NCBI RefSeq assembly: GCF_002886185.1
Contig: NZ_KZ614146.1
Location: 2,402,930-2,466,929, forward strand
Source of the DNA: Salipaludibacillus neizhouensis
GTDB taxonomy: Bacteria; Bacillota; Bacilli; Bacillales; Salisediminibacteriaceae
DNA length: 64,000 nucleotides
Reading direction: 5' to 3'
Position 1 is the stretch's first letter; every line of letters starts with the position of its first letter. The notes under the pieces are model-generated. The model made no database searches, had not been told where the DNA came from, and saw only the letters and a program-made list of their open reading frames with translations. Shown here in pieces: positions 16,357 through 45,651 of this stretch. A program made the position numbers and the translations under genes.

Positions 16357-18246
16357 TTATGCCCGTTGCCTCTTTCTTGGTAAAATCTGTTGAACAGTAG
16401 CCGCAACGTTTGATGCCGTTAACCCTATTTCCTCTAATAATTCTGGAACACTTCCATGTTCAATATAACGATCAGGAATTCCCATTCTTTCAACTACCAT
16501 CGTATGGTAATGGTTCTCATGATAATGTTCCAGCACTGCACTGCCAAAACCTCCTAATAACGCTGTTTCTTCCAACGTCAGTATAGGACGATTATTATCA
16601 GCTAACTCTTTTAGCTTCTCTGCATCGAGTGGTTTAATGGAACGCGCATTGACAACCTCTACATTAATTCCTAATTTCGTCAGAATTTCTGAGGCTTCCA
16701 TCGCAACAGGAATCATTGTTCCAAAGGCTAAAATGGATAAATCTGTTCCTTCTTTTAGATTTTCCCACTTCCCTATCGGAAGAACCTTTAACTCTTTATC
16801 CATATGAACGCCGAATCCACCGCCACGAGGGTACCTTACTGCGATAGGTCCACCGTCATACTGTGTTGCTGTATAAATCATATGTTGCATTTCATTTTCA
16901 TCTTTTGGACTTAAAATTTTCATGTTTGGCAAATGCCGTAAATACGAGATATCGAACACACCTTGGTGTGTTTCCCCGTCCGCACCGACCAAACCTGCTC
17001 TGTCTATCGCAAAAAAGACATTTAGATTTTGTCTGCATACGTCATGAACTAATTGATCATAAGCTCGCTGTAAAAACGTTGAATATACAGCAAACACCGG
17101 TTTCATCCCTTGTGTTGCAAGCCCGGCTGCCATTGTTGTTGCATGCTGTTCTGCTATCCCAACGTCAAACATACGGCCAGGGAATTCTTTAGCGAACTTG
17201 TCCAAACCGGTACCACCTGGCATCGCTGCAGTGATCGCGACAATTCTCTCATCATCTTTTGCAATACGTTTAAGGGTGTCGGTAAAAACTCCACTATAAC
17301 TTGGAGGACCAGGTTTTTTAACTACTTCACCTGATTCAATTTTATACGGCCCTAACCCGTGCCAAGTTCCTTTTGCATCATTTTCAGCAGGTGCATACCC
17401 TTTACCCTTTTTCGTGATAACATGAACGAGAACAGGTCCCTTTGTTTTTCTAGCATAGGTAATATTTTTCTTTAAATCATCTAAATCATGACCATCAACT
17501 GGACCTAAGTAAGTAAACCCCATTTCCTCAAAAAACATTCCGGAAACAAGCAGATATTTTAAACTATCCTTTACTCTTTCAGCAGTTGCTGCAAGTCTAC
17601 CCCCAAAGGCTGGTATTTTTTTAATTAGCATTTCCAGCTCTTCTTTAGCTTTATTATATTTCCCCGCTGTTCTCATCCGGCCTAACATCGAATGAAGAGC
17701 CCCAACGTTCGGCGCAATCGACATTTCATTGTCGTTTAAAATAACAACAACATCTGTTTGCTCATGACCAATATGATTAAGCGCTTCCAACGCCATTCCT
17801 CCGGTCAGTGCACCGTCTCCGATTACTGGTATGACTGTTTCATCAGTACCTTTAAGATCTCTAGCTAATGCCATACCCATGGCAGCAGAAAGAGACGTCG
17901 AACTGTGTCCCGCTTCCCAAACATCGTGCTTGCTTTCAGAACTTTTAGGGAATCCACAAAGTCCTTTGTATTGTCTTAATGTATCAAATTGATCTGCTCG
18001 ACCCGTTAGAATTTTATGAACATAAGCTTGGTGACCAACGTCCCATAGAAATTTATCTTTAGGACTATCAAATAATTGGTGCAGAACGATGGTAAGTTCC
18101 ACTACTCCTAAATTAGGACCCAAATGTCCACCAGTAACAGATAAATTTTCTATTAAAAAATTTCTAATGTCTTCAGCAAGGTCTTCTAGATCTTCATTGC
18201 TGCATTCTCTTAAAAATGTAGGTTCTTTTATGCTTAGCAAATCCAA
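16357..18246 (-). CDS. dxs: 1-deoxy-D-xylulose-5-phosphate synthase
   Basis: Thiamine-diphosphate enzyme that condenses pyruvate and glyceraldehyde 3-phosphate in the first step of the MEP isoprenoid pathway. The 629-residue protein has [16 protein letters not shown] and [12 protein letters not shown] in the ThDP site (near 145-185), DVGIAEQHA near 365, and a transketolase C-terminal domain (DRYIEHGSV). The start is TTG at 18246 with GTGAGGG upstream. Nine bases separate it from oapA. It supplies IPP/DMAPP for ispA across the OLE RNA. Confidence 0.97.
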
Positions 18247-18255
18247 GAAAAACCC

Positions 18256-18870
18256 TCACTTTCTCTTATTATTATTGGTATTCTTTTTTTTACGCTTCTT
18301 TCCTTTAAATATTGTTATTTTCAATTTTACCTCTATTAAGTAAAATAATCTACCCACTTGATAGATGATTTCTGTCGAAAAAGTTATCGCTATTGTTTTC
18401 CCAACTGATTTACCGCCGACAGTTAGTGCTGCAACTATACTAGTAAATAATATTGAAATTCCAAACTGAACAGAGCTGCCATCCGTGTGTCCCATTTGTA
18501 ATGCCAGTTGCAGGACAACATACGCGGAAGCTGTACCACTTATAATACCAGCAATGTCACCGATTACATCATTTGTGAAGTTAGAAAATCTGTCTGCATT
18601 CCGTGTAATCAAAACGGCATGTCTAGCTCCTGGAAGCTTTTCAGCAGCCATTGCATGAAAGGGTCTTTCATTAGCAGCAGTTGCCGCTACCCCTATAGTA
18701 TCAGATAACACCCCTAATAATACAATCAATAAAACAATGACCATTCCAATTCCCCAATTAACACCACTTAAAACAGCTGTTGAGACAACGGAAAAAATAG
18801 CCGCCAGCACCAAAGTGACAGCCGCTATTATCAGACTCCAGTTTAATGATTTCTTCACAGATTCTTTCAT
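18256..18870 (-). CDS. oapA: OLE-associated membrane protein OapA
   Basis: Integral membrane protein of 204 residues with about four hydrophobic segments (10-32, 36-64, 103-126, 133-156) and a DUF21/CNNM-like feel (LSDTIGVAATAANERPFHAM). OapA of Halalkalibacterium halodurans has the same size and lies directly downstream of OLE RNA; it anchors the RNA to the membrane and affects Mg2+ and ethanol tolerance (established for that species). Here the gene follows the OLE RNA and precedes dxs, the same arrangement. The last 16 residues are almost only K, R and N, which could aid RNA binding or be low-complexity drift. The Shine-Dalgarno before 18870 is weak. Confidence 0.88.
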   Translation of the reverse strand: MKESVKKSLNWSLIIAAVTLVLAAIFSVVSTAVLSGVNWGIGMVIVLLIVLLGVLSDTIGVAATAANERPFHAMAAEKLPGARHAVLITRNADRFSNFTNDVIGDIAGIISGTASAYVVLQLALQMGHTDGSSVQFGISILFTSIVAALTVGGKSVGKTIAITFSTEIIYQVGRLFYLIEVKLKITIFKGKKRKKKNTNNNKRK

Positions 18871-18944
18871 AATCTAATCCAAACTTTCAAGTTACTCATA
18901 ATATCTATGATTTATATGTAAGGAGTGGTCATTCAAAGAGTAAA

Positions 18945-19496
18945 AACTGTGTCATAGGTCCAGTTGGTTTTCCCAAGCGAGTATCACAGCGTCGCCGCTA
19001 TGACGGTTTCCCTTTAAACTCACCTTGCCGTTGTCGCCATACGTCAGACTGGATTACCACTTAGAACACACTATAATCCTCTTTAAATGTCAAGTAGAAC
19101 AGTCTAGGAGTTTTCCCCAACAGCTCTTAAAACAATCTCTATCCTCTTTTGCAGAGAAGATTTCATATGGATGATTCCATTTACAACCTAGCAACCATAA
19201 TCCCCTCTATCTCCACTCAAGGCAGGCTACGCTGCTCACGGATCCCCATCCGCAAAGCAGGTTCATACCCTAACACATAGGTAACGCATATAACGAACCC
19301 ACATGCTAGGGCCTCCGCGGCTGCAGGGTCATCGCCCACATGCCATTGTGGATCGCCCTACAACCTTTACTCCCAGTCAGGACCCAAAGCTGGGCGCCTC
19401 AAGCCAAGACTAGGAACTTCATCGATATGCCCTTTAGCGGATTTTTAGACCCGCCTTCGAGAAAGTAGAACCGACTAGAATACTGCACCACTCTCT
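18945..19496 (-). ncRNA. ole: OLE RNA (ornate, large, extremophilic)
   Basis: About 550 nt of non-coding sequence, clearly richer in G+C than its neighbours, lies between ispA and oapA on the minus strand. No frame is open through it on either strand. Local hairpins are visible, for example GCGG/CCGC around 19437-19454, CCACA/TGTGG at 19336-19351 and AGCG/CGCT near 19000. The place between ispA and an OapA/DUF21 gene, next to dxs, and the length of about 0.6 kb are diagnostic of OLE RNA. The 5' end is set from the promoter at 19503-19532. The 3' end, before the AT-rich oapA leader, is approximate. Confidence 0.9.
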
Positions 19497-19502
19497 TAAG
19501 TT

Positions 19503-19532
19503 ATTATAGCATGAGATGATTAAAACAGACAA
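19503..19532 (-). promoter_or_regulatory. Sigma-A promoter of the OLE RNA
   Basis: The minus strand has TTGTCT, an 18-base spacer, then TATAAT with the extended -10 TGC in front. It fires into the OLE RNA about 35 bp after the ispA stop, giving a predicted 5' end near 19495. Confidence 0.78.
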
Positions 19533-19567
19533 TAATTATCATTAGCAACTTTGCGAATGATTTCCAA

Positions 19568-20458
19568 TTATGCTGTTCTGTTTTTTATAAAGTCTGCGAT
19601 CTCTTCTAAAAGGCCAAACTCATAAGGCAAGTTACTTAAATGCGATTTTGCTGCATCTATATGATAATCTAGTTTTTCTTTAGCTTCTTCGAGTCCGAGT
19701 ATGCTTGGGTAAGTATTTTTATCACTTTCTGCATCACTGCCTACAGGCTTTCCAATACTTTCTTCATCACCTTCAACATCTAACACATCATCCTTTATTT
19801 GAAACGCCAATCCAATATGTTTACCAAAAGCGCTTAATTCAGCAATTGTTTCCATTGACGCTGAACCTAAAATCGCACCACATTCCAAAGAAACTCCTAG
19901 TAAGTCACCTGTTTTTCGATGATGTATTTGTTCAAGTTCATCAAGGGAAAGAATTTTACCTTCTCCTTCCATATCAGCTACTTGTCCTGCTACCATTCCG
20001 GATGGTCCTGCAGCTTCTGATATTCGTTGCAACAATTGAATCTTAGTAGCATCAGAAATATCCTCTAATCTGGATATTATATTAAAACTATGAGTGAGTA
20101 GACCATCACCGGCTAATATTGCCAGTGCCTCACCAAAAACTTTATGATTTGTCGGCTTCCCTCTTCGTAAGTCATCGTCATCCATTGCCGGTAAATCATC
20201 GTGAACGAGGGAATACGTATGAATCATCTCAATCGCACAGGCTACATCATAGCCTAGTTGCAAGGGCTTATTTAATCCTTGCAAAGTTGCTAGCAACAAA
20301 ATCGGTCGTATCCTTTTACCGCCAGCCTGAAGAGAATAATCGATCGCATCTAATAGAGATTGCGGTCCTGTGAGAGTCTCGACTATACTTTTAAGTCTAG
20401 CTTCAATATGCTGGCGTTCTTCAAGAAAAAAGTGTTCTATCATTGCTTGTGATTTCAC
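19568..20458 (-). CDS. ispA: Farnesyl diphosphate synthase (geranyltranstransferase)
   Basis: Condenses IPP with DMAPP and GPP to make farnesyl diphosphate for undecaprenyl phosphate, quinones and carotenoids. The first Asp-rich motif is DDLPAMD at 87-93, the second QIKDDVLDVEGD near 226-237, and GGKRIRP at 47-53 binds substrate. The 296 residues are normal. GTG start with GAGGAG upstream; only 3 bp after xseB, so part of folD-xseA-xseB-ispA. Confidence 0.97.
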   Translation of the reverse strand: MKSQAMIEHFFLEERQHIEARLKSIVETLTGPQSLLDAIDYSLQAGGKRIRPILLLATLQGLNKPLQLGYDVACAIEMIHTYSLVHDDLPAMDDDDLRRGKPTNHKVFGEALAILAGDGLLTHSFNIISRLEDISDATKIQLLQRISEAAGPSGMVAGQVADMEGEGKILSLDELEQIHHRKTGDLLGVSLECGAILGSASMETIAELSAFGKHIGLAFQIKDDVLDVEGDEESIGKPVGSDAESDKNTYPSILGLEEAKEKLDYHIDAAKSHLSNLPYEFGLLEEIADFIKNRTA

Positions 20459-20461
20459 GGT

Positions 20462-20695
20462 TTACTTCTCCTCTTCTATATCAAATGTACTGATTTCCCC
20501 GTCCTCAGACAAAACTTCAGTCATCTGTTTTTCTACATGCTGTAAACGATCGTGACAATTCTTTGATAGTTTCATCCCTTCTTGAAACATCGTAATTGCT
20601 TCTTCAAGAGGTACATCACCTTGCTCTAATTTTTCTACAATATTTTCCAAATCATTCATTGATTGCTCAAATGATTGCTTTTTCTCTTCTGCCAT
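20462..20695 (-). CDS. xseB: Exodeoxyribonuclease VII small subunit
   Basis: 77 residues, mainly helical, with the family segment [26 protein letters not shown]. It binds XseA to form the single-strand nuclease used in repair and mismatch correction. It follows xseA by 11 bp and has a strong GGCGGGAA site upstream. Confidence 0.96.
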
Positions 20696-44523: not shown

Positions 44524-45618
44524 TTAAGACCGTTTATAAAACGGCGTACTTACAACCTTAGCCTTTAAACGACGCTTCCTTACTTGTACTTCCACTTCTG
44601 TGCCTAATTCTTTATATTCAGAGTCAATCAAGGCCAATCCGATATTTTTCTGAAGCGTTGGAGATTGTGTTCCAGTTGTAATAAAACCAATCTTTTTCTC
44701 CTTATAAAATACCTCATAGTCCGTTCTTGGAATTCCTTTATCCATCATCTCAAGTCCAACCAGTTTTCTTTTAGCACCTAGCTCTTTCTGCCTTTTCAAT
44801 ACGTTTTTACCGAGAAAGTTTTCCTCTTTATCTGTTTTCACTGCAAAACCTATTCCAGCTTCTACAGGCGTAATCGATTTCGATAATTCTTGGCCATATA
44901 GTGCAAGCTTTGCTTCAAAACGCAATGTATCCCGAGCTCCAAGTCCACAAGGTAAAAGCCCTTCTGACTCCCCGGCGCTTAGAATACTCCTCCATAAGTG
45001 GACGGCATCATTTGGAGAACAATAGATTTCAAATCCATCTTCACCTGTGTAGCCGGTTCTGGAGATCAAAACCAATTTATTAGCAAAATTTACTTCTGAC
45101 TTAAACCTAAAAAATGTTATCTCGGATAAATCCGTCTTTGTTAACTTTTGAGCAACATTTTCTGCGAGTGGCCCTTGAATCGCTAACTGGGCAAAGTGCT
45201 CTGATTCATTTTCCACCTTTACATCAGTGTTAGCATGTTGCTTCAGCCACTCAAAATCTTTCTCAATATTAGAAGCATTCACAACGAGCAGAACTTCTTC
45301 CTCGGAAAACTTATAGATAACAAGGTCATCTACCGTCCCACCATCTTCATAACACATGGCATTATACTGACAAGCACCAATTTTCGCTCTTTTCACATTA
45401 TTAGTTAAGATTGTTTGCAAATAGTCCATGGTTCCTTTTCCTGTGACACGAATCTCTCCCATATGAGAAACGTCGAAAAGACCAGCCTTTGAACGTACCG
45501 CATGATGCTCTTCTTTAATACTGGAAAATTGAACTGGAAGATCCCATCCACCAAAATCAATTGTCTTTCCATTTGATTCTTTATACTCCGCAAATAGCGG
45601 CGTTTGTTTTCCTGCCAA
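44524..45618 (-). CDS. gcvT: Aminomethyltransferase (T-protein)
   Basis: Releases ammonia and makes methylene-THF from aminomethyl-lipoyl-GcvH. Conserved [19 protein letters not shown] near 23-41, [10 protein letters not shown] and the folate-site Asp in [13 protein letters not shown]. The start is TTG at 45618 since GGAGG lies 8 bp upstream and the product then matches the family; the ATG at 45633 overlaps that site. First gene of the riboswitch-controlled gcvT-gcvPA-gcvPB operon. Confidence 0.96.
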
Positions 45619-45651
45619 TGCTAGCACCTCCATTTAATTCTTTAAAAATTA

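Follow-up and report, generated by a model that had tools for sequence, protein, structure and literature searches.

An ole-oapA unit between ispA and dxs of Salipaludibacillus neizhouensis, a probably complete and ordinary member of the OLE RNA family whose OapA has a basic tail

OLE is a large bacterial RNA with a membrane partner protein named OapA. The DNA analysed here, 64,000 nucleotides of Salipaludibacillus neizhouensis, a salt-loving relative of Bacillus, is called the window in the following and contains a gene for this RNA downstream of ispA, followed by oapA and dxs (Table 1). The dxs gene starts with TTG, 9 nt past the stop codon of oapA.

Table 1. Positions of the genes and signals at the ole-oapA locus, in window coordinates.
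Feature	Position	Strand	Characteristics
ispA (polyprenyl synthetase), upstream neighbour	19568..20458	-	PF00348, E 1.1e-62
ole promoter	19503..19532	-	-35 TTGTCT, 18-nt spacer, extended -10 TGC-TATAAT
OLE RNA gene, bounds by Rfam RF01071	18909..19507	-	First positions overlap the -10
oapA, 204 codons, ATG start	18256..18870	-	Long helices (predicted), DxxxD (D101, D105), predicted disordered basic tail from residue 188
K/R/N-rich OapA tail codons, residues 188-204	18259..18309	-	pLDDT <50
dxs, downstream neighbour	16357..18246	-	PF13292, E 3.6e-119

In a covariance-model search of window positions 17500-20500, RF01071 matched 599 nt of the minus strand over model positions 1-616 of 616 with 501.7 bits (E 1.6e-145; gathering score 50), which rules out a chance or misannotated RNA. 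The score also exceeds the 390-bit line for "full-length" OLE RNAs given in the accessible part of PMC11332333, whose model differs. A preliminary description of this DNA had placed OLE RNA between ispA and dxs, proposed the RF01071 search, and named a missing RF01071 match or missing OapA homology as grounds for giving up the idea; both the match and the homology were found. Its non-coding stretch stands as well, whereas the length of "about 550 nt" has to be corrected to 590-600 nt. Since the RF01071 match starts within the -10, the true 5' end of the RNA is probably at about 19496. The genome contains a single copy of OLE. A match to BTH_s39 at 18606-18720 is sub-threshold (18.5 versus 77 bits, E 0.51) and was taken as chance. 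The only other Rfam match at gathering score in the whole window is an ordinary glycine riboswitch (RF00504, 45820-45926, minus strand, 61.3 bits), downstream of which lie genes that we take to be gcvT-like (44524-45633) and gcvPA-like.

The ole promoter, TTGTCT-18-TATAAT, matches the consensus at 10 of 12 positions and has a TG ahead of the -10. Taken alone it is not above chance, as four such sites are present in the stretch compared with a mean of 3.6 in shuffled sequence. However, in 97 of 101 distinct loci an extended -10 with at least 5/6 matches precedes a conserved GGTGCAG-type motif by 13-19 nt, whereas 200 dinucleotide shuffles gave a mean of 7.0 and a maximum of 15 of 101. A -35 that starts with TTG and has at least 4/6 matches is present in 25 of the 31 loci of the family group. 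The dedicated extended -10 promoter assumed in the preliminary description is thus conserved at the same place. Available text of PMC9723947 states that ole of B. halodurans (H. halodurans) has a promoter of its own although it lies within a large operon, so that the conserved promoter is a confirmation rather than news. Between ole and oapA a simple scan detected no intrinsic terminator on the minus strand, the single site found being on the opposite strand, and inspection by eye of 18871-18890 (minus strand) revealed no clear Shine-Dalgarno sequence before the oapA ATG.

For the RNA structure, the Rfam structure was projected onto a MAFFT alignment (sequence only) of 101 distinct OLE sequences, which remained from 110 OLE loci after the removal of nine duplicates; 143 consensus pairs were projected, and the count omits pairs within one 14-nt stretch. 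In the OLE sequence of the window 134 of these 143 pairs are canonical. Over all 101 sequences 91.5% of the cells are paired; shifting the 3' partner by 1-3 columns lowers this to 41-44%. Changes on both sides are seen in 96 of the 143 pairs, compared with 36-55 in the shifted controls. As judged from these alignments, the structure of OLE RNA is under selection in the clade of the host.

In all 128 distinct loci examined (140 loci, 60 found via OLE and 80 via OapA, with 12 duplicates removed), OLE is immediately followed on its own strand by a gene for a homolog of the 204-residue protein, which agrees with the earlier proposal that the 204-codon frame is oapA. Both aspartates of its DxxxD motif, D101-VIG-D105, are invariant in 43 of 43 aligned OapA sequences; in the part of PMC11332333 available, DxxxD is named as a distinctive feature of OapA. 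The frame gave no Pfam match at E 0.001 and no NCBIfam match at E 1. PF01595 (CNNM) is thus not matched either, while oapA of 12 relatives matches it at 19.7-24.4 bits, below the cut-off of 28.4 bits. The AlphaFold2 model (mean pLDDT 81.3, pTM 0.69) has long helices, including 3-34, 39-65, 92-125, 133-163 and 165-183; four of the helices in this predicted structure have at least 27 residues and are candidates for transmembrane helices. In a Foldseek search against the PDB, ranks 1-4 were all taken by the CNNM protein MtCorB (7m1t/7m1u) with a probability of 1.00, E values of 0.025-0.13 and TM values by query of 0.46-0.52, whereas the probability was at most 0.25 for the others among the 50 matches listed, and none of 100 matches reached E 0.001. 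According to the text of PMC11332333 at hand, MtCorB (7M1U) is also a top Dali match for OapA of H. halodurans, and the fold result for the window OapA agrees with this. The DUF21-like character proposed before is therefore upheld at the level of the predicted fold and without a Pfam or NCBIfam match. Because neither profile library matched and no Foldseek hit reached E 0.001, the assignment rests on synteny, motif and modelled fold, by which we identify the frame as OapA. Among named records the highest OapA identity was found for Salipaludibacillus daqingensis (82% over residues 1-189), the OLE sequence of which is identical to that of one genome of the same genus (L006 = L034).

The preliminary description had suggested a look for oapB and oapC elsewhere in the genome, and both genes were found. 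A 100-codon frame adjacent to infA encodes OapB; its match to PDB 7k9b, named "OLE-associated protein B", has an E value of 6e-31. OapC is encoded by an 82-codon YbxF homolog (E 4.4e-23 to 3v7e). From translations we take the other neighbor of oapB to be map, and those of oapC to be rpoC and rpsL. An apparent stop inside the match had raised the idea of a broken OapC, which is ruled out, since the 82-codon frame is uninterrupted up to its own stop codon. A second L7Ae-type gene is located elsewhere in the genome, and there is one gene for bS21 (65.4 bits). Furthermore, the host genome contains a gene for an MpfA-like CNNM protein, a 416-codon frame with 182 bits at genome position C1:1694831 (L031 1465-2715, plus strand).

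We assign a probability of about 97% to the reading that the locus represents the genome's only ole-oapA unit, complete and belonging to the known OLE ribonucleoprotein, as predicted from its sequence. Besides the lack of a profile match and of a Foldseek E value of 0.001 for OapA, the presence of the MpfA-like gene and the absence of an H. halodurans-type mimic in the RNA (see below) were counted against this reading. Accessible text of PMC11332333 describes the Mg2+ exporter MpfA as anticorrelated with OLE, and in only one of eight genomes of the genus, that of the host, does a CNNM match exceed the Pfam cut-off. This would suit a degenerate OLE relic that is held by its position in the operon, with a non-working ribonucleoprotein, the Mg2+ role of which has passed to the MpfA-like protein. 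Such a relic is very improbable, however, as 134 of 143 pairs are intact in the OLE sequence of the window, the promoter is conserved and the frames of oapA, oapB and oapC are open. Moreover, CNNM matches exceed the cut-off in 18 of the 35 family genomes, yet OLE is kept in all 35.

For the complete and working OLE unit the following course can be assumed. A SigA-type promoter before ole would give rise to an RNA of about 590-600 nt, and read-through from it would cover oapA and dxs. The RNA would adopt the OLE structure and could be bound in the membrane by OapA, together with OapB and OapC, whose genes sit in the ribosomal-protein region. Based on reports by others on H. halodurans, the complex may aid survival of cold, alcohols, excess Mg2+ and poor carbon sources. 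A membrane model, a cryo-EM dimer and stress phenotypes of OLE are covered by the sections of PMC12265935, PMC12286853 and PMC10898510 available.

OLE is present in 8/8 genomes of the genus and in all 35 genomes of the host's family, as well as in 250 of the 348 genomes of a phylum-wide draw that includes the host genome, and its presence here is thus ordinary. In this draw, for which stricter filters were used, none of the four same-order and none of the eight same-class genomes contained it, so OLE is patchy among the nearer relatives outside the family; 14 named control genomes were likewise negative (0/14). The locus is therefore confirmed and ordinary; its RNA belongs to a family already known, and it adds no new kind of system. 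OLE RNA and Salipaludibacillus are both mentioned in the part of PMC6704655 available.

In the available text of PMC12054373, the ribosomal protein bS21 is mapped to P6 of the H. halodurans OLE RNA, where a CCUCCU mimic of the anti-Shine-Dalgarno sequence is located. The constructs M1-M3, in which the mimic was altered and the conserved pairs were kept, still bound bS21, whereas mutants of the conserved pairs G151-C183 and G152-C182 showed weaker binding (PMC12054373). In the window the corresponding stretch of P6 (19319-19329, minus strand) reads ACCCUGCAGCC, and the CCUCC mimic is absent. By alignment columns CCUCC occurs in P6 of 2 of the 101 distinct OLE RNAs from the host family and other relatives; a pattern search on the hairpin found it in 2 of 82 readable sequences, 19 of the 101 being unreadable. 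The phylum draw added 2 of 30, these loci being the best 30 of 250 matches and, as several are near-identical, an uneven sample. In contrast to the mimic, which is found in 4 of 131 OLE RNAs in total, GGG (150-152) and CCC (180-182), numbered by the OLE sequence of the window, are invariant in 131 of 131, both counts including the best 30 of the 250 phylum matches. As far as these sequences can tell, it is the pairs that are a conserved part of the OLE family, and the anti-Shine-Dalgarno mimic is not.

The preliminary description had regarded the Lys/Arg/Asn-rich end of OapA as unusual for this host, which does not hold: a net charge of at least +8 in the last 20 residues is found in 29 of 30 distinct proteins of the host's family (mean +9.8). 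This group comprises the 30 of 35 family genomes for which loci were returned and ten named loci (L034-L043), nine of them placed by an OLE sequence identical to that of a family genome and Evansella tamaricis by its genus name. Other Bacillales and relatives have a mean of +4.5, with 4 of 69 at +8 or above, and the phylum draw one of +4.2, with 3 of 29, so that 7 of 98 proteins outside the family reach this value when both groups are pooled; the lowest charge in any group is +1. According to this comparison the long basic tail appears as a trait of the host's family, while a mildly basic end is general. Residues 188-204 are predicted by AlphaFold2 to be disordered, and the order of residues inside the tail is not conserved. 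Both would suit the explanation that the tail makes no RNA contact and stems from an A-rich coding sequence or from membrane topology (positive-inside anchoring), to which we give an even chance. Base shuffling of the last 18 codons likewise leaves a mean charge of +4.80; against this explanation, the observed mean is +9.47, and in 21 of the 30 distinct family proteins, though not in the other nine, fewer than 5% of shuffles reach the observed charge. As the relatives within the family are not independent, the excess is only suggestive of a charge beyond base composition. The tail would most likely be cytoplasmic, beside the RNA, and add unspecific charge-based affinity. In the OLE papers available we found no treatment of the C-terminal tail of OapA, and we do not claim its absence from print.

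These comparative results bear on the candidate role of the tail in RNA binding and on the dependence of bS21 on the mimic. A tentative and rather doubtful proposal combines both: OapA of this family of haloalkaliphiles may have gained its extended K/R tail as an extra anchor for OLE RNA, and bS21, if it binds, may read the invariant GGG/CCC of P6 and not the mimic. If this were true, the published mimic of H. halodurans would be incidental.

The OLE complex of H. halodurans, with which the likeness is drawn from published descriptions, shares with the locus a full-length OLE RNA, oapA directly downstream and an own promoter within a larger operon, as well as genes for OapB, OapC and bS21. It differs in P6, where the RNA of the window has CCUGCA instead of the CCUCC mimic, and in that the host has one MpfA-like gene, whereas H. 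halodurans is reported to be without mpfA in the accessible part of PMC11332333. With the CNNM/DUF21 transporters (MpfA, MtCorB; PF01595) OapA shares the predicted fold of the membrane domain, as indicated by the Foldseek probability of 1.00 to 7m1t/7m1u. However, the 204 residues of OapA are too few to hold the CBS and HlyC/CorC domains that MpfA is described as having, and OapA is set apart from the CNNM/DUF21 proteins by the DxxxD motif and, for the OapA of the window, by the lack of a PF01595 match.
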